Of a stretch of DNA of 37,134 bases, positions 7,516 to 28,728 are shown one piece after another. Within the stretch, counting starts at the first letter, position 1. Every line of letters starts with the position of its first letter. Made by a program: the position numbers and the translations under genes. Source of the stretch: a virus; IMG/VR virus record IMGVR_UViG_3300046004_001992, positions 1 to 37,134 of that record, one strand, 5' to 3'. Under the pieces are notes generated by a model. It was not told the DNA's origin. It saw nothing but the letters and a program-made list of their open reading frames with translations, and did not search any database.

Positions 7516-7519
7516 ACGC

Positions 7520-7557
7520 CAAATGTACTAAAAAGTTAATTCATTTTTGATTTAGAC
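7520..7557 (-). promoter_or_regulatory. Promoter for the 7515-6675 unit
   Basis: Minus-strand TACATTTG (7527-7520) matches the Bacteroidota -7 consensus TAnnTTTG exactly and ends 4 nt before the ATG. A GTC lies at 7557-7555, 27 nt upstream, similar in layout to the late element but 3 nt longer. No clear -33 TTTG is visible at the usual distance. Confidence 0.55.
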
Positions 7558-7599
7558 AGTTTTTTTTTCTGTAAAAAATCCATTTTGAAAGCTAAAAAG

Positions 7600-7860
7600 C
7601 AAAAAAAAACCGCTTTTCTGCCACCTTGCTGATTATCAATATTTTAAGTTTTTGCCCTAATTGGCATCAAAACCACGCCAGTATTGAAGGAGCGGAATTT
7701 TTTGACAGAAAAAAACATTTCCGCTTTTCCGCTTTTTTTGGAGCGGATTTTAAAAAAACCGCTCCCAAAAAAATAATGAGTTAACTAATTGATTTATATA
7801 TAATTATACAATATATATATAATAAAAAAGCGGAAAAGCGGAAAAGCGGAATTTTTACAC
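7600..7860. other. Candidate replication origin: AAAAGCGG iterons around an AT-only tract
   Basis: This is part of the 519-bp gene-free stretch 7516-8034. AAAAGCGG occurs three times in tandem at 7826-7849. Its complement CCGCTTTT occurs at 7610-7617 and twice in tandem at 7721-7736. GGAGCGGA occurs at 7689-7696 and 7740-7747, and the second copy pairs with CCGCTCC at 7759-7765 in a strong hairpin. Between the two iteron clusters, 7786-7829 is almost purely A and T with alternating TATATA, a plausible unwinding element. Iterons plus an AT-rich tract plus hairpins are the usual elements of plasmid and phage origins. A regulatory or packaging site is the alternative. Confidence 0.5.
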
Positions 7861-7896
7861 AACTTTCAGAAAATGGCAAAAAACGACAAAAAGTGG

Positions 7897-7947
7897 CTAT
7901 TTTTCGCAAGATTTAACTTTTTGTTCTCTATTTTCGCAAGATTCAAC
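7897..7947. repeat. Direct repeats with core TTTTCGCAAGATTyAAC
   Basis: Two copies, at 7897-7917 and 7928-7947, share CTA and TTTTCGCAAGATT(T/C)AAC and are spaced about three helical turns apart. A related sequence, TTTTCGCAATATTCAAT, lies at 15231-15246 by the TATATTTG promoter upstream of the tail unit. They sit between the candidate origin and the terminator of the endolysin unit. They look like binding sites for one protein. Confidence 0.55.
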
Positions 7948-7949
7948 AA

Positions 7950-7986
7950 TAAAAAAGCCGATTTCGTTAAAAATCGGCTTTTTTTA
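7950..7986. terminator. Strong bidirectional terminator after the endolysin gene
   Basis: AAAAAAGCCGATTT and AAATCGGCTTTTTTT form a long perfect stem around a small loop, with a T-run on the right and an A-run on the left. It works as an intrinsic terminator in either direction. It closes the tail-endolysin unit about 50 bp after the endolysin stop and separates it from the gene-free repeat region. Confidence 0.9.
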
Positions 7987-8034
7987 TAGGTTAATTAGTT
8001 CTAAATCAACTAATTAATTTTTTAAAAATTTCTT

Positions 8035-8550
8035 CTATTGTTCATTTTTTGAGATAACACCTTTTGCAGTTAGCTTCACTACTCGCACATTTGCTGGTTG
8101 CGCAATTTTCCACGCTGTTCTTCGTGCTTTATGCAAGCGCGTTTTTAAAATTCTAGTGACATTTACCTGGTTATTTTGGTTGCCTCCCAGAACGTGGAAA
8201 CAAGTATCGTCTTCGCCAACATAAATTCCTACGTGGCCACCACCATTTCTTTTAAAAGTCAAAATATCACCAAGCATTGGTACTTCTGCTTCAGTTCCAT
8301 ATTTTGCCCAGTTCAACGCCCAAAGTGGCGATTTTACCACTTCAACATTCGCTCGATGCGCACAAATTGCCACGAATAAACCGCACCAAGGAATTTCATC
8401 ATTGGTATAAACTTTTTCAAGGTCCAATTCTTTAGCCCATTCAAGAATAGTTGGATTGTGTTTTTTTCCAACAATTTCTTTTGTTCCAATCAATTTGATT
8501 GCTTCAAGAAGAATGCGCGGTGCTTTTTCGGTGGATAGGAAATCGTACAT
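8035..8550 (-). CDS. Endolysin, CHAP/NlpC-P60-like cysteine peptidase (TIGR02594 type)
   Basis: A 171-residue cell-wall amidase or peptidase that should open host peptidoglycan at lysis. Motifs of the TIGR02594/CHAP-like fold are visible: catalytic Cys56 in DEIPWCGLFVA, His106 in GGGHVGIYVGE and a polar third residue near Asn124 in LGGNQNNQVNV. PMLGDILTF (91-99) is also typical. There is no signal peptide, so export would depend on a holin. The holin-like gene (31200) is far away, so the lysis genes are split. It is the last gene of the tail unit, 11 bp after the fibre gene and followed by a strong terminator. Confidence 0.85.
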   Translation of the reverse strand: MYDFLSTEKAPRILLEAIKLIGTKEIVGKKHNPTILEWAKELDLEKVYTNDEIPWCGLFVAICAHRANVEVVKSPLWALNWAKYGTEAEVPMLGDILTFKRNGGGHVGIYVGEDDTCFHVLGGNQNNQVNVTRILKTRLHKARRTAWKIAQPANVRVVKLTAKGVISKNEQ

Positions 8551-15268: not shown

Positions 15269-15303
15269 GTCCTTTCACGCGTGTGATTAAATGTTGAATT
15301 TTG
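15269..15303 (+). promoter_or_regulatory. Candidate late promoter C (tape measure unit, plus strand)
   Basis: GTC (15269-15271), 24 nt, GAATTTTG (15296-15303), 5 nt, ATG at 15309. This is the same element as at the three minus-strand structural units, found in the opposite orientation exactly where the only plus-strand unit begins. This argues that it is functional and sets the start codon. Confidence 0.7.
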
Positions 15304-15308
15304 AAATT

Positions 15309-15806
15309 ATGATAGATTTCACAAAGTATGATTTAGAAAAAGCCAAATACATTGCCAGAAAAGGCGGTAAATCGGTGCTTGAATCAATGATTGAAAACGT
15401 TCAAAATTTAGATTTAGTCAACAAAGCGGAATTGATTAAGTCTATAAAAACAAGAGTTTCGACATCACAAGGAATTGTTGATAAGATTTCGATTTCTTAT
15501 GCTTGGTATGGCGTTTTCCACGAAATCGGAATTGCAGGAACACAAAACAAATTTCCTTCAGGTGGTGAATTCAAATCAAAGAATCCATCGCAAAAAATGA
15601 TTAAACAAATCGCTGAAAATTACAATGTTTCAGAAGATGAAGCTTTCTTAATAGCTCGCAAAATCATTCGAACTGGTATTGAAAAAACCGAATGGCGATC
15701 AAAAGCGATAAAAGATAATTTACCAGAAATTGATAAAGAATTTTCAGATTATTATGCGGAAATAATTTTGAAAGAAGTTACTGATTTTGATGATATAAAA
15801 ATGTAA
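15309..15806 (+). CDS. Putative head-tail joining / HK97 gp10-like protein
   Basis: A 165-residue protein immediately upstream of the tape measure. It is helical at the N-terminus, with a central WYGVFHEIGIAGTQNKFPSG segment that recalls the FHEFGT loop of HK97 gp10-like tail completion proteins, and an acidic C-terminus. I use the ATG at 15309, not the in-frame ATG at 15291, because the latter lies inside the late-promoter element. It is the first gene of the only plus-strand unit and is separated by 2 bp from the tape measure gene. Confidence 0.6.
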   Translation: MIDFTKYDLEKAKYIARKGGKSVLESMIENVQNLDLVNKAELIKSIKTRVSTSQGIVDKISISYAWYGVFHEIGIAGTQNKFPSGGEFKSKNPSQKMIKQIAENYNVSEDEAFLIARKIIRTGIEKTEWRSKAIKDNLPEIDKEFSDYYAEIILKEVTDFDDIKM

Positions 15807-15808
15807 AA

Positions 15809-18800
15809 ATGGCAAAAACTAACATCTACATAGACGGTGCGCAAGCTGGAAACAGTTTAAAACAACTGAAAAAAGAATACAATGAAGTAAATCGCGCAAT
15901 CAAGGAAATGAAACGTGATTCTGATGATTATCGTGAATCTGTTAAGAAATTGGGCGATTTAAAAGCCGCAATGAATAAGCATCAATCCGATATCAAGGCT
16001 GTTTCTCAATCCTATGAACAAGCTGGTAAAACGATGAAGGAAATGCCAGCCATTCAAAAACAAAATGCGAGCGGTTGGAAATCTATTGCATCCAATGCGC
16101 TTCCTTTCGTTGGCGTTGCTGGATTGATTTCTGTTGGCGTTCAAGGAATAACTGCTGCCATTGGTTCCTGGTACCGCAATAACAAGGAAATGGAAAAAAG
16201 CCTTTCTTCCTTAAAATCGCTTACTGGCGCATCGGCGTCTGATCTTGAATTTTACAAAGAAACGGCAAAAGAAATGGGAAGAACAACAACTCTTTCCGCA
16301 ATTCAAGCTGTTGAAGCTTTCAAATTGATTGGTTCGGCACGTCCTGATTTATTGAAAGATCGCGAGGCATTAGCACGAGTTACGCACGAAGCTGTAATTT
16401 TAGCTGAAGCGGCAAACATGGAACTTGCACCAGCGGCACAGGCTTTGGCTTCTTCCATGAATCAATTTAACCTTGGTGCGGATCAATCAAAACGAATCAT
16501 TAACACCTTGGCGGCTGGTTCGGTTGAAGGTGCTGCCGAAATTGAAGATTTGACCGCTTCTATTGATAGATTTGGAACGGTTGCAAGCGCAAACAACGTA
16601 ACAATTGAAGAATCTGTTGCGCTTACTGAATTGCTTTCTGAAAAAAATCTGAAAGGTGCTGAAGCTGGTACCCAATTAAGAAACGTATTGTTGGCAATGT
16701 CAACAGCAAGCGCATTGGATGATAAAGCTGTGAAAGAGTTGGAGAAATTTGGCGTAAACGTGGAAATGGTGATGGATAAAACAGTGCCATTCAATGAGCG
16801 CTTGCAAGAAATGAGTAAAATTTCAGGTGATCAAACAGCGTTGTTGCGTGTTTTTGGAAAGGAAAATATTGTTGTTGGCCAGACTCTTTTGCAAAATGTT
16901 GACCACTTTGAGAAATTAACAACAGCAGTAACAGGAACAAACACAGCCTACGTTCAAGCCAAAATAAACAATGATAACTTGGATGGCGATTTGAAGAAAT
17001 TATCTTCTGCTTGGGAAGGTTTGACACTTTCAACTTCAGCAGCGCAATCACCAATGAGAGGCGTTGTGCAAATTGGTACCGAAATGTTGAATTGGATTTC
17101 AGATGTTATTGGCTTATTGACTGAATGGGATGAATTGAAATTTGAAGAAGTGTTGCTGGATTTTGGAAAATATTTGACGTATATAAATCCGTTGATGTTT
17201 GTTTTCGGTGATTCCTTGCGCGAAGCCATTGACGAACAACAGCGAATGAACCGATTGACACAAGAAGTTGTGGATGGAATGAAAACCCAAGCGGATGAAG
17301 CGGCAACATTAACAATGGCTTTGGATGCGAACAATAAAGCCTTGAAGGATAAAAATCTAACAGATATTGAAGCGAAGAAAATTCAAGATGAAAACGCATT
17401 GATAATTGATAAGCTAAACACAAAATATCCTGAATTAACCAAAAATTATGATTTGCAAAACGCATCGGGGCAAACGCTTTCTAAGTTGCAAAAGGAAATC
17501 ACAGCGAATTTGTTGAATCAATCTATTGCAGCAGTTCAAGCAACAGAAGCGGAAAGGCTATTGGCTGAAATGGTGCAACAATCGATGGCAATTGCAGAAC
17601 AGCGCGCAACAGAACAAAACCGCTGGGGCTTAACCAATTTTGTAGCGGATGTGTTCACAGATGATGCGGCCGATTTGGAAGAACAATTGCAAAAATCACA
17701 AGCGCAATTGGAGAATTTACCAAACACAATGAAAGATGTTTCCGCACGCATCAAAGGTTTGAATTTGAATTTCGGGCAGGCATTTGCCACACAAACACAG
17801 CTGATGGAAGAATCGGTGCGCAAAATAAATAACTTAAAAGTGAATGCGCAATTGTTCAAAGGTTCGTGGATGGAAGATGTTTTCAAAGGGCAAATGAATT
17901 CTGAAGAACAGATTTTGAAGGTTTTGAAAGCCCAATCTGAAGAAGAAAAAAAGAAATATATTGAAAACAAGAAACAGGAAGAACAAAAAGCAGCAGCGGA
18001 AAAAGCGGCAGCCGATGCCACTGAAAAAGCCAAAGCAAAAGCGGAATCAGCACGCCAAGAATTTGAGAATCTGAAAAAAACATTGGATTCAATTATTGAA
18101 TCTTCTTCTAAATTCAAGATTGATTTTGCATTGGAAAAACGCTTGGCAGAATTTACGGATGAATTTGCCAAAGAAATGTTTGTTTTTGAAAATGGGATTA
18201 AATCCAAGTATCAAAAAGAAATTGATTCTGCGCGCGAATTATCCAAGCAAAAAGGGAAAATTGGCGAAGATGCTGCTAAGGAATTGGCATCGCTTGAAAC
18301 GTTGCAAGCTGAAGAATTAGAGTTTGGAAAAGATAACATTCGCAAAAAGTGGCGCGCAAAAGGTGAACAGGAAATGGCAGAATTCCAAGCCAACCAAACA
18401 GCCCAACAACTCGCACAAGCTGAAAGCTACGAACAAGCTTTGATGGATATTAAAGTGGCGCGAGCGTATGCAGCAGCACAAGCTGTAAAAGATGGCGACA
18501 TCAAGGCACAGCAAGAAGCGAATGAGCAATTGAACGCCATATTGATTGAACAGTTGGAATTTGAAGCTAAATTAAAAGCTGAAGCACTTAAAAAACAATT
18601 GAAAGATGGCGAAATCAATCAAGCGGAATTTGACGCAAGAAAATTGGAAAATGAAACTGTTTTAGCTGAACAGATTTCACAGATTCACACCAACACGCAA
18701 GAAGAGTTAATGCAAATGTTTGAAGATCGTTTTTCAGAAATTGCGAATAACATTTCGCGTGTGGTTGATACAATGGAACAAATCGCCAATGCTTATTTCA

Positions 18801-19531
18801 AGGTGCAATTAACAAACATTGAAAATGAAAAGAATCAAGCATTAAAAGCAGAACAAGAGCGATTGGATAAAGGCTTGATTTCGCGTGAACAATTTGAGTT
18901 TCGCAAGCAAGAACTGGAAGATGCCACCAATAAAAAGAAACTTGAAATTGAACGCCAACAGGCAGAACGCGCAAAAATGTTCGCAATGTTTGAAGCGGCA
19001 ATCAATACAGCTGTTTCCGCATCCAAGGTTTTGGCAAATCCGTTATTATTAGCTTTGACTTTGGCGGCTGGAGCTGCGCAACAATTAATGATTGCTTCAG
19101 AACCTTTGCCACAATTCATTGATGGTGGTTTTAGAAATATTGTTGGCGCAAACGATGGCAAAACTTACAATGCACAAAAAGTTTCGCCACTCAAAGGTGG
19201 AATGACACCAAACACACCATCTTATGCGCTGTTTTCAGAATCGGGTCCAGAATACTTTGTGCCAAACAATTTATTGAAAGATGTTCGCGTGGCAAATATG
19301 GTGAATGCAATTGAAGCTATCAGAACCAATCAGCAAGGCGCACCAGGAATGATAAATTCAATTGCATCTGGTGGAATGAGCGATGAAAGAATTATTGCGT
19401 TGTTAAATGCAAATTTGGTGGCAATTACAGCCTTGAATCAAAAGATTCCTAATATGGGCGTAAAAATTGGCGATAAACAGATTGATGATATTTCCACGCG
19501 AAGCAATGAATTGAATAGTTTCAAGGCATAA
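15809..19531 (+). CDS. Tail tape measure protein (TP901-type)
   Basis: A 1240-residue protein that sets tail length and is ejected with the DNA. Residues 1-70 form a charged helical start. Residues about 88-115 are hydrophobic (LPFVGVAGLISVGVQGITAAIG). Residues about 130-400 match the TP901 family core (LKSLTGASASDLEFYKETAKEMG, then LAEAANMELAPAAQALASSM-like and GTQLRNVLLAMST). Long Ala/Glu/Lys coiled coils follow (about 690-1060), then a hydrophobic patch (ALTLAAGAAQQLMIA) and a Gly-rich C-terminus. Length predicts a tail of about 185 nm if 0.15 nm per residue applies. It is transcribed against all neighbouring tail genes. Confidence 0.92.
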   Translation: MAKTNIYIDGAQAGNSLKQLKKEYNEVNRAIKEMKRDSDDYRESVKKLGDLKAAMNKHQSDIKAVSQSYEQAGKTMKEMPAIQKQNASGWKSIASNALPFVGVAGLISVGVQGITAAIGSWYRNNKEMEKSLSSLKSLTGASASDLEFYKETAKEMGRTTTLSAIQAVEAFKLIGSARPDLLKDREALARVTHEAVILAEAANMELAPAAQALASSMNQFNLGADQSKRIINTLAAGSVEGAAEIEDLTASIDRFGTVASANNVTIEESVALTELLSEKNLKGAEAGTQLRNVLLAMSTASALDDKAVKELEKFGVNVEMVMDKTVPFNERLQEMSKISGDQTALLRVFGKENIVVGQTLLQNVDHFEKLTTAVTGTNTAYVQAKINNDNLDGDLKKLSSAWEGLTLSTSAAQSPMRGVVQIGTEMLNWISDVIGLLTEWDELKFEEVLLDFGKYLTYINPLMFVFGDSLREAIDEQQRMNRLTQEVVDGMKTQADEAATLTMALDANNKALKDKNLTDIEAKKIQDENALIIDKLNTKYPELTKNYDLQNASGQTLSKLQKEITANLLNQSIAAVQATEAERLLAEMVQQSMAIAEQRATEQNRWGLTNFVADVFTDDAADLEEQLQKSQAQLENLPNTMKDVSARIKGLNLNFGQAFATQTQLMEESVRKINNLKVNAQLFKGSWMEDVFKGQMNSEEQILKVLKAQSEEEKKKYIENKKQEEQKAAAEKAAADATEKAKAKAESARQEFENLKKTLDSIIESSSKFKIDFALEKRLAEFTDEFAKEMFVFENGIKSKYQKEIDSARELSKQKGKIGEDAAKELASLETLQAEELEFGKDNIRKKWRAKGEQEMAEFQANQTAQQLAQAESYEQALMDIKVARAYAAAQAVKDGDIKAQQEANEQLNAILIEQLEFEAKLKAEALKKQLKDGEINQAEFDARKLENETVLAEQISQIHTNTQEELMQMFEDRFSEIANNISRVVDTMEQIANAYFKVQLTNIENEKNQALKAEQERLDKGLISREQFEFRKQELEDATNKKKLEIERQQAERAKMFAMFEAAINTAVSASKVLANPLLLALTLAAGAAQQLMIASEPLPQFIDGGFRNIVGANDGKTYNAQKVSPLKGGMTPNTPSYALFSESGPEYFVPNNLLKDVRVANMVNAIEAIRTNQQGAPGMINSIASGGMSDERIIALLNANLVAITALNQKIPNMGVKIGDKQIDDISTRSNELNSFKA

Positions 19532-21817: not shown

Positions 21818-22345
21818 TTAATTACAATCGTTTTCTGATAATTCAACAGGATAATATTTTGAGTATTTTTTTAATAAACTCAAATCATTCATAAAGCTGG
21901 CGCGAATTTTATGTTTTTCAATCGCTTTCCAAATCCTTTTGCGTGGATCAATGCGCTTTTTTCTTCTGGCAATGATTGTGGAAGGGCGCACAATGTATTT
22001 TGGTAATCGCTTTGGCTTGGTTCGTGAATGAGCTGCAACAATTCTAATATTTAGCATTAACATTTCACTCCAACCAATCATTGCTTGATCTACTTTTTCA
22101 AGAACATTTGCAACATTTGTGCGATCTCTTCCAAAGTATTCAGCAGCTTCGCCTTCTTTCTTTCCGCAAAGTAAGTTCCAAAGAATGCCAGTAAATCGCC
22201 ACATCACCACAAATGGCAATCTGTTTGGTTGTTTCAGTTCTACCAATGATAAAGGGCAAACCTCGTGGAAATCTTGAATGTCGTAGAAATCGCAATCAAT
22301 TTTTCGCTTGATTTTGTTTAGGGCAACTAAGTGTTTATTCTTCAT
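21818..22345 (-). CDS. DnaA domain IV-like DNA-binding protein
   Basis: A 175-residue protein. Residues 48-92 read like DnaA domain IV, the HTH that binds DnaA boxes: a basic helix (MWRFTGILWNLLCGKKEGEA), then AAEYFGRDRTNVANVLEKV, matching the usual pattern in which GRD-H/R-T-x-V precedes the recognition helix. There is no ATPase domain. Residues 105-150 are strongly basic (SRTKPKRLPK, RRKKRIDPRKR), suggesting further DNA contacts. I start at 22345 (MKNKHLVALN), 11 nt inside the upstream gene. A likely role is replication initiator, origin binding, or interference with host DnaA. Similar HTHs occur in phage replication and regulatory proteins. Confidence 0.65.
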   Translation of the reverse strand: MKNKHLVALNKIKRKIDCDFYDIQDFHEVCPLSLVELKQPNRLPFVVMWRFTGILWNLLCGKKEGEAAEYFGRDRTNVANVLEKVDQAMIGWSEMLMLNIRIVAAHSRTKPKRLPKYIVRPSTIIARRKKRIDPRKRIWKAIEKHKIRASFMNDLSLLKKYSKYYPVELSENDCN

Positions 22346-22793
22346 CCTGTAAACATTCAAACGTTGCCAAATATTCTTCAATTGCTGTGATGCTTTCAAT
22401 GCTTTTATTTTCAGCAACATCCATCAGCAATTGCGCTTGTTTTGTGAATGTTTTGAAATTTTCAGAAGTCAAATCTTTCAATTCTTTGATTAGATCTTCA
22501 TTTGTTATTGAAATGGCTGGTGCTTTGCCGTTGTACACTTCAATCAGTTCACGGATAGCGTTTCTTAATACTGAAAAGTTTTTAACTGTATTATTGAACA
22601 GTTCATCACTTTGTCGCTTATTTTCAAGCAATCTTAAATTATCCTCGCTTTTTACTTTCAAATACAGTTTTAGTGCTTCAATTTCAGATTTCAAAATTTC
22701 AACTTGGTGAAACTGATTTTTTTCTCCTTTTTTTTGCGCTTTTTCAATCGCTTCTTCCCAAGTCTTATGGGAAACAACTTTAAATCCTAACAT
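22335..22793 (-). CDS. Hypothetical coiled-coil protein (152 aa)
   Basis: Unknown function. The protein is helical throughout: a short start (MLGFKVVSHKTWEEAIEKAQ) and then long heptad-rich coiled coils (VEILKSEIEALKLYLKVKSE, and a second region about 100-150). It probably dimerises. It overlaps the DnaA-like gene by 11 nt, so the two may be co-translated and possibly act together. No catalytic motif was seen. Its leader AAAATTAAAACTATG is nearly the same as that of the endolysin gene. Confidence 0.65.
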   Translation of the reverse strand: MLGFKVVSHKTWEEAIEKAQKKGEKNQFHQVEILKSEIEALKLYLKVKSEDNLRLLENKRQSDELFNNTVKNFSVLRNAIRELIEVYNGKAPAISITNEDLIKELKDLTSENFKTFTKQAQLLMDVAENKSIESITAIEEYLATFECLQDEE

Positions 22794-25244: not shown

Positions 25245-28200
25245 TCAGAAAGGATCATCATCTTCTTTGTTTGCGTTCATAATTGCAGGCGTGTAGGCAC
25301 TTTCTTGCACTGGAGTAAATGGACCAGTTACCACATCTTTCAAGCTTAAATTCAATTTATCAAAGTCAAATGCATAAGCAGAAGTTTTTCCATTATCAAA
25401 TTCAACTGTTTTGACGTTGCCAATAAATGATTTCTTATCCGATTTCATGTAAGACTTCAACGATGTTTCTGCGTGGCCATTTTCGCCTGTTTGCTTGCGG
25501 TGGTGTTCTGAATATTTAGGGAACACACGCTGGAACCTAACAAACAACACATTCTTATTCTGTGGAAATTCAATCACCACATCTTTATCATCTTTTCCGC
25601 GCACTTTCAAGCTGGAAACACACGCCACTTTGTAATCTTCATTGTTTTTCAAGATGCCATCGAAAGAAAGGAATTCAAGCATTTTCCAGAAGCTGTTTAA
25701 GATATTCGTATCTGACGCAATAGAAGATTGATTGATAATCCATTCCTTGCAAATTTCAAACACTTCTTCATAATCCATCGGAATGTCGATTTTTGAACCC
25801 ATAATCTTTAGAACAGTTACCAAAATTGAAAGTGATTGCAAGGTTCTTCCTTCATAACTGATGGCAGCCAATTCAATCTTCATTCTTCTGCTTACTTCAT
25901 CAAATTCTGTTTGCCACTGATCTTCAAAATAATCGCGCCAAGAAACAACTTCTAAAATCAAATTTGATAAGCCTTTTTTCTGCCAGCCGTTCAAAATGTT
26001 GTATTCATCCACTTCCGCTTGTGTGAATTCTTCTTGCTTTTTGGTGAATTCCAAAAGAACGGTGCGCAAAAGCAGTGAATTTTCATCGCGTGTTGGATAA
26101 TGTTGTCCGGAAATTCCAGCACCTGAATTGATTAAAACTTGCTTGGTTCTGTTATCATTCGACATAATTGCCTTTTCAGCTCCTACGCCATCAAATAAAG
26201 ATTTCAAAGCTTGGAAACGCTTATCATCTAAATCATTGGTGTATTCATCCAGCCAAACAAAAGAATTGCGCACCCTTGAAATTCTTCTTTGAAAACCATT
26301 TACAGTTCCTGAATTAAGGTTGAATTCTGGTTGATTGAAACAAAAAACACGGCTTAAAGAACGTGCACAAGTGGATTTTCCTGTTTGTGGCTGGCCTACG
26401 AAGAACAGCAAAGGGAAAACATTCGTGGATTGGTAAATAACATCGCGAAAACAGCACGCAATCATATACAGCGAAGTGATAATTCCATTGTTGCCATAAA
26501 CTTTTTGAATTTGTTGGCTCCATAGCTTATAATTTACTTCTTCATTGAAATTATACTTCAAATATCGATCCGCAACATAGTCGTCTTGATCATTCTTGAA
26601 AACAGTATTTATTTTTGAAAACGCTGGCAAAAAGTATTTTTCACCGTTTTTTTCGATCAATCCATAATCATCAATTCGTTTGAATGTTTTATCATAAGCA
26701 ATTCCATCAGCGAAGGCATAGAATTTGTTATCTGGTTGCCAGCCTAAAGTGGTTAATGGTTGGCAATACAGGAATTTCGACATATACTTGATGTAAAAAT
26801 TCTGATGTTGGAAAGCAGAACCTTTGAACCAAAAATTTCCGTGGTTGGCAACTGCTTCGCGAAATCCTTGTAAAGAAAGCCATTGCTTGTTTTTGATTTC
26901 AATAATCGTTTTTTTGTGTGGATTTTGAATTTCAATAATGCGATCTGAATCATCCTTAGAACCAACCTGAAACACTGGTTTAATAATGAAATTTGTAACG
27001 CGTTCAAAATCCTTGAATGAATTGCCTTTTGGGAAATAATAACCGATTTTTTTCGGATCTGTTTCTGAATAAAAACCAAATTCGCTAAAATCTTGAATTT
27101 CATCTTTGGATAAGTGGCGTGGCAATACAAAACCATCCACTTCTTCTGAATTCTGCGAGGCTTTGGCTGCTAAATTAATCTTTACCCTTTCTTCAACTGT
27201 TTTGCGGTCTAATTTGTATTCTTTGGCAAACAATTTCACATAGGAATTGCGCAATTGTGCATCTGTAATTACAGCAACAATTTCAGCAGCTTGAATTTCA
27301 GCATTTGTTTTTTCAATCGTTGTTTTTGCTTCTGAATAGATTTGTTTCACCAGGTATTCAACAGCATCCACTTTTCCTTCCAAAATTTCACTTTTCAAAG
27401 CTTTGTATTCTGAAGGTTGGCGCGATTTCACCAAATCATCTGGATCCATTCCTTGCGCTTCTGGAATATACAAGTAAACTTTCAATTCGTTCTCCAAACA
27501 CGCAATTGTATCTTTTTTGATGGATGCCAAGCCAGCTTTATCATTGTCAACAAAAAGCATCACTGTATCACAATACTTGCGAATCATTGCCATTTGCTCA
27601 TTGGTGAAAGCAGTTCCAAGCGGTGCAATAGTGTTGTTAAATCCGATTTCGTGCAAACTTGTTACATCAAAATTCCCTTCAACCTTAACGGCAAAACCCA
27701 TTTCACGCATTGAAAACTTTGCCAAATGAATTCCAAGCAAAGAATTTGATTTTGAATAAGCTTCTGTTTCGGCTGTGTTCAGAATCTTTGGAATTGTTTT
27801 TCCAGCTGGTGCTTCAATGATGTTTCTTCCTGAAAAACCAATTAACTTTCCTGAATCTGTGAAAATAGGAAACATTATTCTTCCGCGAAAGAAATCATAT
27901 ACTTTGCCGTTTTCTGATTTCTTCGCTAAGCCAGCTTTAATGATTTGATCTTGTGAAAATCCTTGCGCTTTCAAATATTTCTGCAACGCATCAAATGAAT
28001 CAGGCGCATAACCCAAGGCAAATTTTTGATAAGTTTCAGGTTTTGCTCGCATTTTATCAACAGGAATCAAGCGCAAATTTTCTTCTGAAGTAAAAAATTC
28101 AAGTGCTGCTTGATTGACTTCTGTTAATGTTTTGATGCGCTCTGATTTCTCCTGGTATTCTTTGGAGCGTGGCGAATCATCAAATTCAACCGCAATTCCG

Positions 28201-28472
28201 AAAGAAGATGCAATTTCTTTGATTGCTTCCGGATAACTCATGTGAAATTTTTCCATCACAAAAGCAATTCCATTGTTGCCACCTTTACCTGTGCTGAAAC
28301 ATTTCCAAAGGTTCTTGGAAGGTGATACGGTGAAAGATGCGCTTTTTTCTTCTGTGAATGGTGATTTGGCTTTGAAACTTGAACCCGATTTTTTCAATTC
28401 AGGAACAAATTTAGAAATCACTTGAACCAAATCTAAATCATTTACAGCATCAATGGTGGTTCTACTTAACAT
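25245..28472 (-). CDS. DnaG-type primase fused to helicase-like ATPase
   Basis: A 1075-residue protein that probably primes and unwinds DNA at the phage fork. I start at 28472 (MLSRTTIDAVNDLDLV), which matches Bacteroidota DnaG N-termini. Residues 37-65 are a CHC2 zinc-finger-like region with only Cys58 of four ligands. Residues 193-203 (DFFRGRIMFPI) and a TOPRIM set follow: VEGNFDV 264-270, FVDNDKAG 307-314 and GMDPDD 341-346. The C-terminal half has Walker A GQPQTGKST at 693-701 and Walker B VWLDEY at 739-744, a P-loop ATPase resembling DUF927/SF3-like phage helicases. It is the largest early gene and is followed by a new promoter. Confidence 0.88.
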   Translation of the reverse strand: MLSRTTIDAVNDLDLVQVISKFVPELKKSGSSFKAKSPFTEEKSASFTVSPSKNLWKCFSTGKGGNNGIAFVMEKFHMSYPEAIKEIASSFGIAVEFDDSPRSKEYQEKSERIKTLTEVNQAALEFFTSEENLRLIPVDKMRAKPETYQKFALGYAPDSFDALQKYLKAQGFSQDQIIKAGLAKKSENGKVYDFFRGRIMFPIFTDSGKLIGFSGRNIIEAPAGKTIPKILNTAETEAYSKSNSLLGIHLAKFSMREMGFAVKVEGNFDVTSLHEIGFNNTIAPLGTAFTNEQMAMIRKYCDTVMLFVDNDKAGLASIKKDTIACLENELKVYLYIPEAQGMDPDDLVKSRQPSEYKALKSEILEGKVDAVEYLVKQIYSEAKTTIEKTNAEIQAAEIVAVITDAQLRNSYVKLFAKEYKLDRKTVEERVKINLAAKASQNSEEVDGFVLPRHLSKDEIQDFSEFGFYSETDPKKIGYYFPKGNSFKDFERVTNFIIKPVFQVGSKDDSDRIIEIQNPHKKTIIEIKNKQWLSLQGFREAVANHGNFWFKGSAFQHQNFYIKYMSKFLYCQPLTTLGWQPDNKFYAFADGIAYDKTFKRIDDYGLIEKNGEKYFLPAFSKINTVFKNDQDDYVADRYLKYNFNEEVNYKLWSQQIQKVYGNNGIITSLYMIACCFRDVIYQSTNVFPLLFFVGQPQTGKSTCARSLSRVFCFNQPEFNLNSGTVNGFQRRISRVRNSFVWLDEYTNDLDDKRFQALKSLFDGVGAEKAIMSNDNRTKQVLINSGAGISGQHYPTRDENSLLLRTVLLEFTKKQEEFTQAEVDEYNILNGWQKKGLSNLILEVVSWRDYFEDQWQTEFDEVSRRMKIELAAISYEGRTLQSLSILVTVLKIMGSKIDIPMDYEEVFEICKEWIINQSSIASDTNILNSFWKMLEFLSFDGILKNNEDYKVACVSSLKVRGKDDKDVVIEFPQNKNVLFVRFQRVFPKYSEHHRKQTGENGHAETSLKSYMKSDKKSFIGNVKTVEFDNGKTSAYAFDFDKLNLSLKDVVTGPFTPVQESAYTPAIMNANKEDDDPF

Positions 28473-28728
28473 ATTCAGGAAGTTTAGAAAAGTGAATGAT
28501 TTCGCGGTTAAGAATGCGCGCCACAGTGAGCGAATGTTGAATTGCTGCTGAAGTTTCATTCGTACAGCTGACAACCAAATTGCATTCTAATAATTGCGCC
28601 ACATTCTCTTCCATATCTTCCTGATCGATTAGTGCGATGGATTTAACATTTTCTCCTTCAAATTGTGTAAGGTCAAGCGATTGTTTCTCATTGCTGACAA
28701 CAATGATGAATATTTTAAGATTTTTCAT
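28462..28728 (-). CDS. Hypothetical protein (88 aa) upstream of primase
   Basis: Unknown function. It starts with a beta strand (LKIFIIVVSNEKQSLD), continues with VKSIALIDQEDMEENVAQLL and ends with LNREIIHFSKLPEYVK. The pattern suggests a small Rossmann-like alpha/beta domain, perhaps a shortened nucleoside-deoxyribosyltransferase-like fold. The middle CNLVVSCTNETSAAIQHSL fits a strand-loop-helix. It overlaps the primase start by 11 nt, so the primase may be translated by coupling. Confidence 0.65.
   Translation of the reverse strand: MKNLKIFIIVVSNEKQSLDLTQFEGENVKSIALIDQEDMEENVAQLLECNLVVSCTNETSAAIQHSLTVARILNREIIHFSKLPEYVK

Follow-up and report, generated by a model that had tools for sequence, protein, structure and literature searches.

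We propose that a non-coding gap in the genome of a 37-kb Bacteroidota-type phage is very probably a theta-type replication origin of the PICI/SaPI kind, driven by the phage's own primase-helicase. The genome is a virus record of IMG/VR, and its entire stretch of 37,134 nt (hereafter the window) was analysed. A preliminary description of the sequence had interpreted iterons and an unwinding element in this gap as an origin, and this interpretation was strongly supported both by the comparative anatomy of the locus and by the fold predicted for the linked replication protein.

The window encodes terminase, portal, head protease and tail genes, and nearly all of its genes are carried by the minus strand. 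The named relatives of the terminase were mostly flavobacterial and other Bacteroidota phages. The terminase-to-portal order across the contig ends was matched by the contig L127 in a single alignment over the junction (80% identical), indicating a circularly permuted genome of which all or nearly all is present. We found one relative with the same locus, IMGVR_UViG_3300034198_014884 (G001, the same contig as L006 and L103 in our searches). A lysin search yielded 80 loci, of which only L006 had its neighbourhood in common with the window, and the exact 16-mer AAAAGCGGAAAAGCGG occurred in 30 viral stretches, with neighbouring genes in common only in L103 and one short primase match to the window in L109. 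Megablast of the first 20 kb of the window against the phage collection returned no close relatives, and bacterial genomes searched with the major capsid protein and with the primase gave no matches. GC skew across the whole window was uninformative about the origin because gene orientation dominates the skew. The tape-measure gene and its neighbour (15291–19531) are on the plus strand, and the same inversion was found in G001 and L126.

The gap is the only one in the window longer than 300 bp (the next longest is 203 bp), as previously described, and is flanked by a lysin-like gene at 8035–8550 and by the head-gene operon, which runs leftwards from 7515. The following features were annotated in it.

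7516–8034, no strand: non-coding gap holding the proposed origin, 519 bp, the longest gap of the window
7610–7617, minus strand: iteron C, a single outer exact copy of AAAAGCGG
7630–7639, minus strand: TTGATAATCA element, with similar strings beside the iteron blocks of several related phages
7689–7702, plus strand: variant iteron GGAGCGGAATTTTT, from repeat analysis
7721–7736, minus strand: iteron block B, two exact head-to-tail copies of AAAAGCGG
7740–7765, no strand: hairpin of two inverted iteron cores, GGAGCGG (7740–7746) and CCGCTCC (7759–7765)
7767–7825, no strand: AT-rich tract, ~92% AT, candidate unwinding element
7826–7849, plus strand: iteron block A, three exact head-to-tail copies of AAAAGCGG with an 8-bp period
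7901–7917 and 7931–7947, no strand: two 17-nt direct repeats, TTTTCGCAAGATTyAAC, next to the proposed origin, both kept in G001
7951–7984, no strand: perfect inverted repeat flanked by A and T runs, 91% conserved in G001

The six exact copies of AAAAGCGG in the gap start at 7610, 7721 and 7729 on the minus strand and at 7826, 7834 and 7842 on the plus strand. In the entire window the word occurs 11 times against 2.04 expected (maximum of 5 in 100 shuffles), and the other five copies are scattered elsewhere. The looser core AGCGG occurs nine times in the gap. The hairpin sits within a 19-nt near-perfect inverted repeat, and a perfect 21-nt inverted repeat pairs 7718–7738 with 7824–7844. The three direct and three inverted copies and the hairpin were thus as initially described; the nearly pure AT run was also recovered, but it is placed more precisely by the present analysis, with the hairpin on one side of it and the three direct copies on the other, and the element continues slightly further in both directions. 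In a scan for mixed-orientation clusters of 8-mers, this array ranked highest in the genome, with a score of 9.7, whereas none of 200 dinucleotide shuffles scored above 7.56. The inverted repeat at 7951–7984 is a probable bidirectional terminator between the lysin gene and the origin, and the core of the 17-nt direct repeats was found within the window only at 7901–7947.

Conservation of the locus was evaluated by comparison with the one relative, G001. The whole gap was 92.7% identical, while the adjacent coding sequence was 82–84% identical and its third codon positions 66–73%; a gap that changes more slowly than its neighbouring genes is very likely functional. All 68 nucleotides of the iteron blocks were identical, comprising the regions of block A (7826–7850, 25/25), block B (7719–7739, 21/21), iteron C (7606–7617, 12/12) and the variant iteron (7689–7698, 10/10). 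The hairpin region (7740–7772) was identical at 32 of 33 positions, the sole change falling between the two arms, and the AT tract (7773–7825) was 90.6% identical. At the level of sequence, this comparison shows the iterons to be under strong purifying selection.

We then considered which protein of the phage would recognise the iterons, for which the following genes and regions are relevant.

25245–28574, minus strand: primase-helicase and candidate initiator, with a Zn ribbon, TOPRIM and a Cch/SaPI-Rep-like helicase
25365–25535, minus strand: C-terminal winged-helix region, with AlphaFold2 elements H535–550, H557–566, E571–580 and E583–591 in fragment numbering
21818–22420: DnaA-like small protein, from a signature visible by eye that is also present in its homologue

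The 25245–28574 product contains a DnaG-type zinc ribbon, a primase core and TOPRIM. Its true start is probably the ATG at 28472, which gives a protein of 1075 aa, the length of the homologues in L124 and L126. For the helicase half, a sequence-profile search against the PDB yielded nothing significant, and fold comparison alone was successful. An AlphaFold2 model of the last 630 residues (pLDDT 85, pTM 0.73) was closest to SCCmec Cch (5dgk_A; Z 24.8 over 475 residues, rmsd 4.7) and SaPIbov1 Rep (8tch_A; Z 21.8 over 456 residues, rmsd 4.6), with alignments spanning model residues 13–15 to 605 and including the C-terminal winged helix. MCM helicases reached Z scores of at most 16.8, mostly over the helicase core only, and D5-type chains had lower Foldseek ranks. 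The DUF927 domain is present in Cch, a relative of SaPIbov1 Rep (PMC7581432), and 3 of 18 homologues of the primase matched this domain (best E 4e-6). By its predicted structure, the protein is a candidate initiator helicase of the Rep/Cch fold with a putative C-terminal DNA-binding domain.

The winged-helix region, which lies within the stretch aligned to 5dgk and 8tch, has no residue differences from G001, whose primase is 96% identical to that of the window, and on the model it is the probable iteron-binding domain. Across 17 loci, iteron distance was correlated with winged-helix distance (Mantel r 0.53, p 0.0002), also when controlling for the ATPase domain (partial r 0.40, p 0.0014) and weakly when controlling for the primase N-terminus (r 0.22, p 0.08); these correlations serve as supporting evidence only, since the iteron words were consensus sequences chosen by hand.

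Related phages were scanned for their strongest cluster of repeated 8-mers. In Leef_1, laban6-1 and a Porphyromonas phage the top cluster was an array of this kind, and the iteron words were AAAGATTACA in Leef_1, TTCTCAACA in laban6-1, AGTTCCAACA in Ingeline_1 and CGTCCTACAA in the Porphyromonas phage. Among 21 IMG/VR loci obtained by primase alignment, which by our own count represent ~14 lineages and are not all independent, the top cluster was an 8–10-bp iteron array near the related primase in 20, a few of them with only three exact copies. A prospective second sample of 15 further loci, collected with two other primases as queries and including some near-duplicates and a few modest scores, gave in 14 cases a top mixed-orientation array that is not within any large ORF and lies 87–5915 bp 3' of the primase. 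The array was directly 3' of the primase in laban6-1, L128, L132, L136, L137, L139, L143, L147 and others. The array of the window (7610–7850) is not immediately 3' of the primase gene, the two being ~16–17 kb apart, and such a distance between origin and initiator gene is unusual and speaks against the proposed reading. As read from the sequences, the common layout opens with an iteron block and closes with another block. Between these lie inverted iterons, which often form a hairpin and have an AT-rich stretch on either side, the second of these stretches often carrying a TTGATAATCA-like string; the letters of the iteron vary between lineages while the architecture is constant.

An array alone is not specific to origins, because high-scoring mixed arrays were also present in phages for which no such primase is known, and some control loci with only the lysin in common scored above 11. 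The Microcystis phage Mea-Yong924-1 has a mixed array of five TGTCCGAA copies, which was left out of the count because it lies mostly inside an annotated, possibly spurious gene, and the 8-mer cluster scan of Bacteroides phage BT-TP2 revealed no convincing array. Eight copies of ACTTTACA in both orientations were found in L059 (8642–8804) and in L075 (9268–9429), which have only the lysin in common with the window; these arrays are possibly other origins or control regions.

Among the other roles that the repeats could have, that of operator or activator sites for the promoter of the head-gene operon, with the origin elsewhere, would suit the position of the gap after a terminator and ahead of that operon, as well as the presence of a −7-like motif, TAnnTTTG, on the minus strand at 7527. 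No full −33/−7 promoter was found, however, many relatives have the array directly 3' of the primase gene instead, and iterons in both orientations around an AT-rich tract fit an initiator better than an operator, so that we consider this role quite unlikely. An attP in which the repeats serve as arm-type sites for a tyrosine recombinase is most improbable: Leef_1 and Ingeline_1 do have a tyrosine recombinase gene immediately upstream of their arrays, as such sites would suggest, but a PF00589 search of the window and G001 detected no tyrosine integrase, and the integrase genes of laban6-1 and the Porphyromonas phage lie a long way from the array. A structured non-coding RNA, which the preliminary description had named as an outcome that would speak against an origin, would account for the stable folding of the minus strand (z −8.07). 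The plus strand is equally stable (z −7.85), as expected of inverted DNA sites, there is no Rfam match and no compensatory change in G001, and what the more distant relatives have in common is the iteron layout rather than an evident fold, which makes such an RNA very improbable.

The array might also be an origin with a different initiator, for example the DnaA-like small protein or host DnaA, with the primase-helicase loading only later. The preliminary description had suggested a binder resembling DnaA domain IV (21818–22345), and apart from the signature that visual inspection shows in both the small protein and its homologue, the gap contains one match to TTWTNCACA, the DnaA-box-like TTTTACACA starting at 7853. 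That box is mismatched in G001, the gap holds no cluster of DnaA boxes as would be typical of a DnaA-dependent origin, and the iterons do not resemble DnaA boxes. A Pfam search with the small protein gave nothing even at E ≤ 5. Its homologue in G001 is only 33% identical despite identical iterons, and its gene is absent from L126, where the primase is 95.6% identical (the L126 contig does not include its own origin region); this divergence and absence make it an unlikely binder, and the suggestion was not supported. Given also that the fused primase-helicase has a predicted winged helix of its own, another initiator is unlikely, and the primase-helicase appears from the modelling to be the better candidate for binding the iterons. 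The gene of the small protein is among the fastest-changing genes, while several of its neighbours are conserved.

With the primase-helicase as initiator, we infer that it would bind the iterons via its C-terminal winged helix, form two hexamers facing in opposite directions at the two iteron sets, melt the AT-rich tract between them and load itself as the replicative helicase, and that its own DnaG-type primase domain would make the primers to be extended by a host polymerase. With such a self-loading and self-priming initiator, the origin would work like those of SaPIs/PICIs and phage P4, without host DnaA.

The alpha protein of phage P4 combines primase, helicase and a C-terminal winged-helix origin-binding domain in one protein, and the P4 origin (ori1/crr) has 8-bp iterons in both orientations and needs the second, distant site crr. 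The window resembles this system in joining primase, helicase and a predicted winged helix in one protein and in its 8-bp iterons in both orientations, but the alpha helicase is of the SF3 type whereas the helicase model of the window is closest to the MCM-like Cch and SaPIbov1 Rep.

In PICI origins an AT-rich region is invariably flanked by two sets of iterons, an organisation said to be unique to PICIs (PMC6092414), and in SaPIs the iterons are read by the C-terminal domain of Rep and the origin is just downstream of the rep gene (PMC7581432). The window likewise has two sets of short iterons flanking an AT-rich region and a helicase predicted to have the Cch/SaPIbov1-Rep fold with a C-terminal domain, and many of its relatives have the origin just 3' of the helicase gene. 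It differs in that its carrier is a full tailed phage with virion genes and not a satellite, in that its origin is far from the helicase gene, and in that the helicase is fused to a DnaG-type TOPRIM primase, while the primases of SaPIbov1 and SaPI5 are of the AEP family (PMC7581432). The Polaribacter phage Leef_1 (Helgolandviridae) has a comparable 521-bp gap after a terminator and upstream of the head genes, containing AAAGATTACA in both orientations and AT-rich DNA, but the iteron is another one and the primase is not detectably related by tblastn, with only a weak DUF5906 match.

These phages may form a broad, previously undescribed replicon class of tailed phages, mainly of the Bacteroidota type, in which a fusion of a DnaG-type primase and a Cch/SaPI-Rep-like helicase is paired with a PICI-style origin and the fast-diverging iteron words could act as replicon-compatibility types, a proposal that we regard as possible but not quite probable. 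If it is true, the PICI origin organisation would be common to ordinary phages and may have come from them, contradicting its reported restriction to PICIs (PMC6092414). From our reading of the searchable literature, mapped origins appear to be few among Bacteroidota phages, and the flavophage genome paper describing Leef and Ingeline mentions neither iterons nor a replication origin (PMC8776804). The present analysis provides a predictable origin for dozens of phages together with a candidate initiator whose reading domain is defined, and the natural pairs of winged helix and iteron are material for studying the evolution of initiator specificity.

Two further elements were observed beside the arrays of related phages. 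The C-rich motif CCCCC-nnA-CCCCC, which is rare in these mostly AT-rich genomes and absent from the window, accompanies the array at close range in 13 of 20 related phages, in most cases 45–80 bp before the first iteron (upstream of the array in L117, L119, L120, L121, L130, L134, L136–L139, L142, L144 and L146). The recombinase directly upstream of the array in Leef_1 and Ingeline_1 is a second, short tyrosine recombinase (L117 28136–28999 and L120 21703–22494), which is perhaps a dimer-resolution system.
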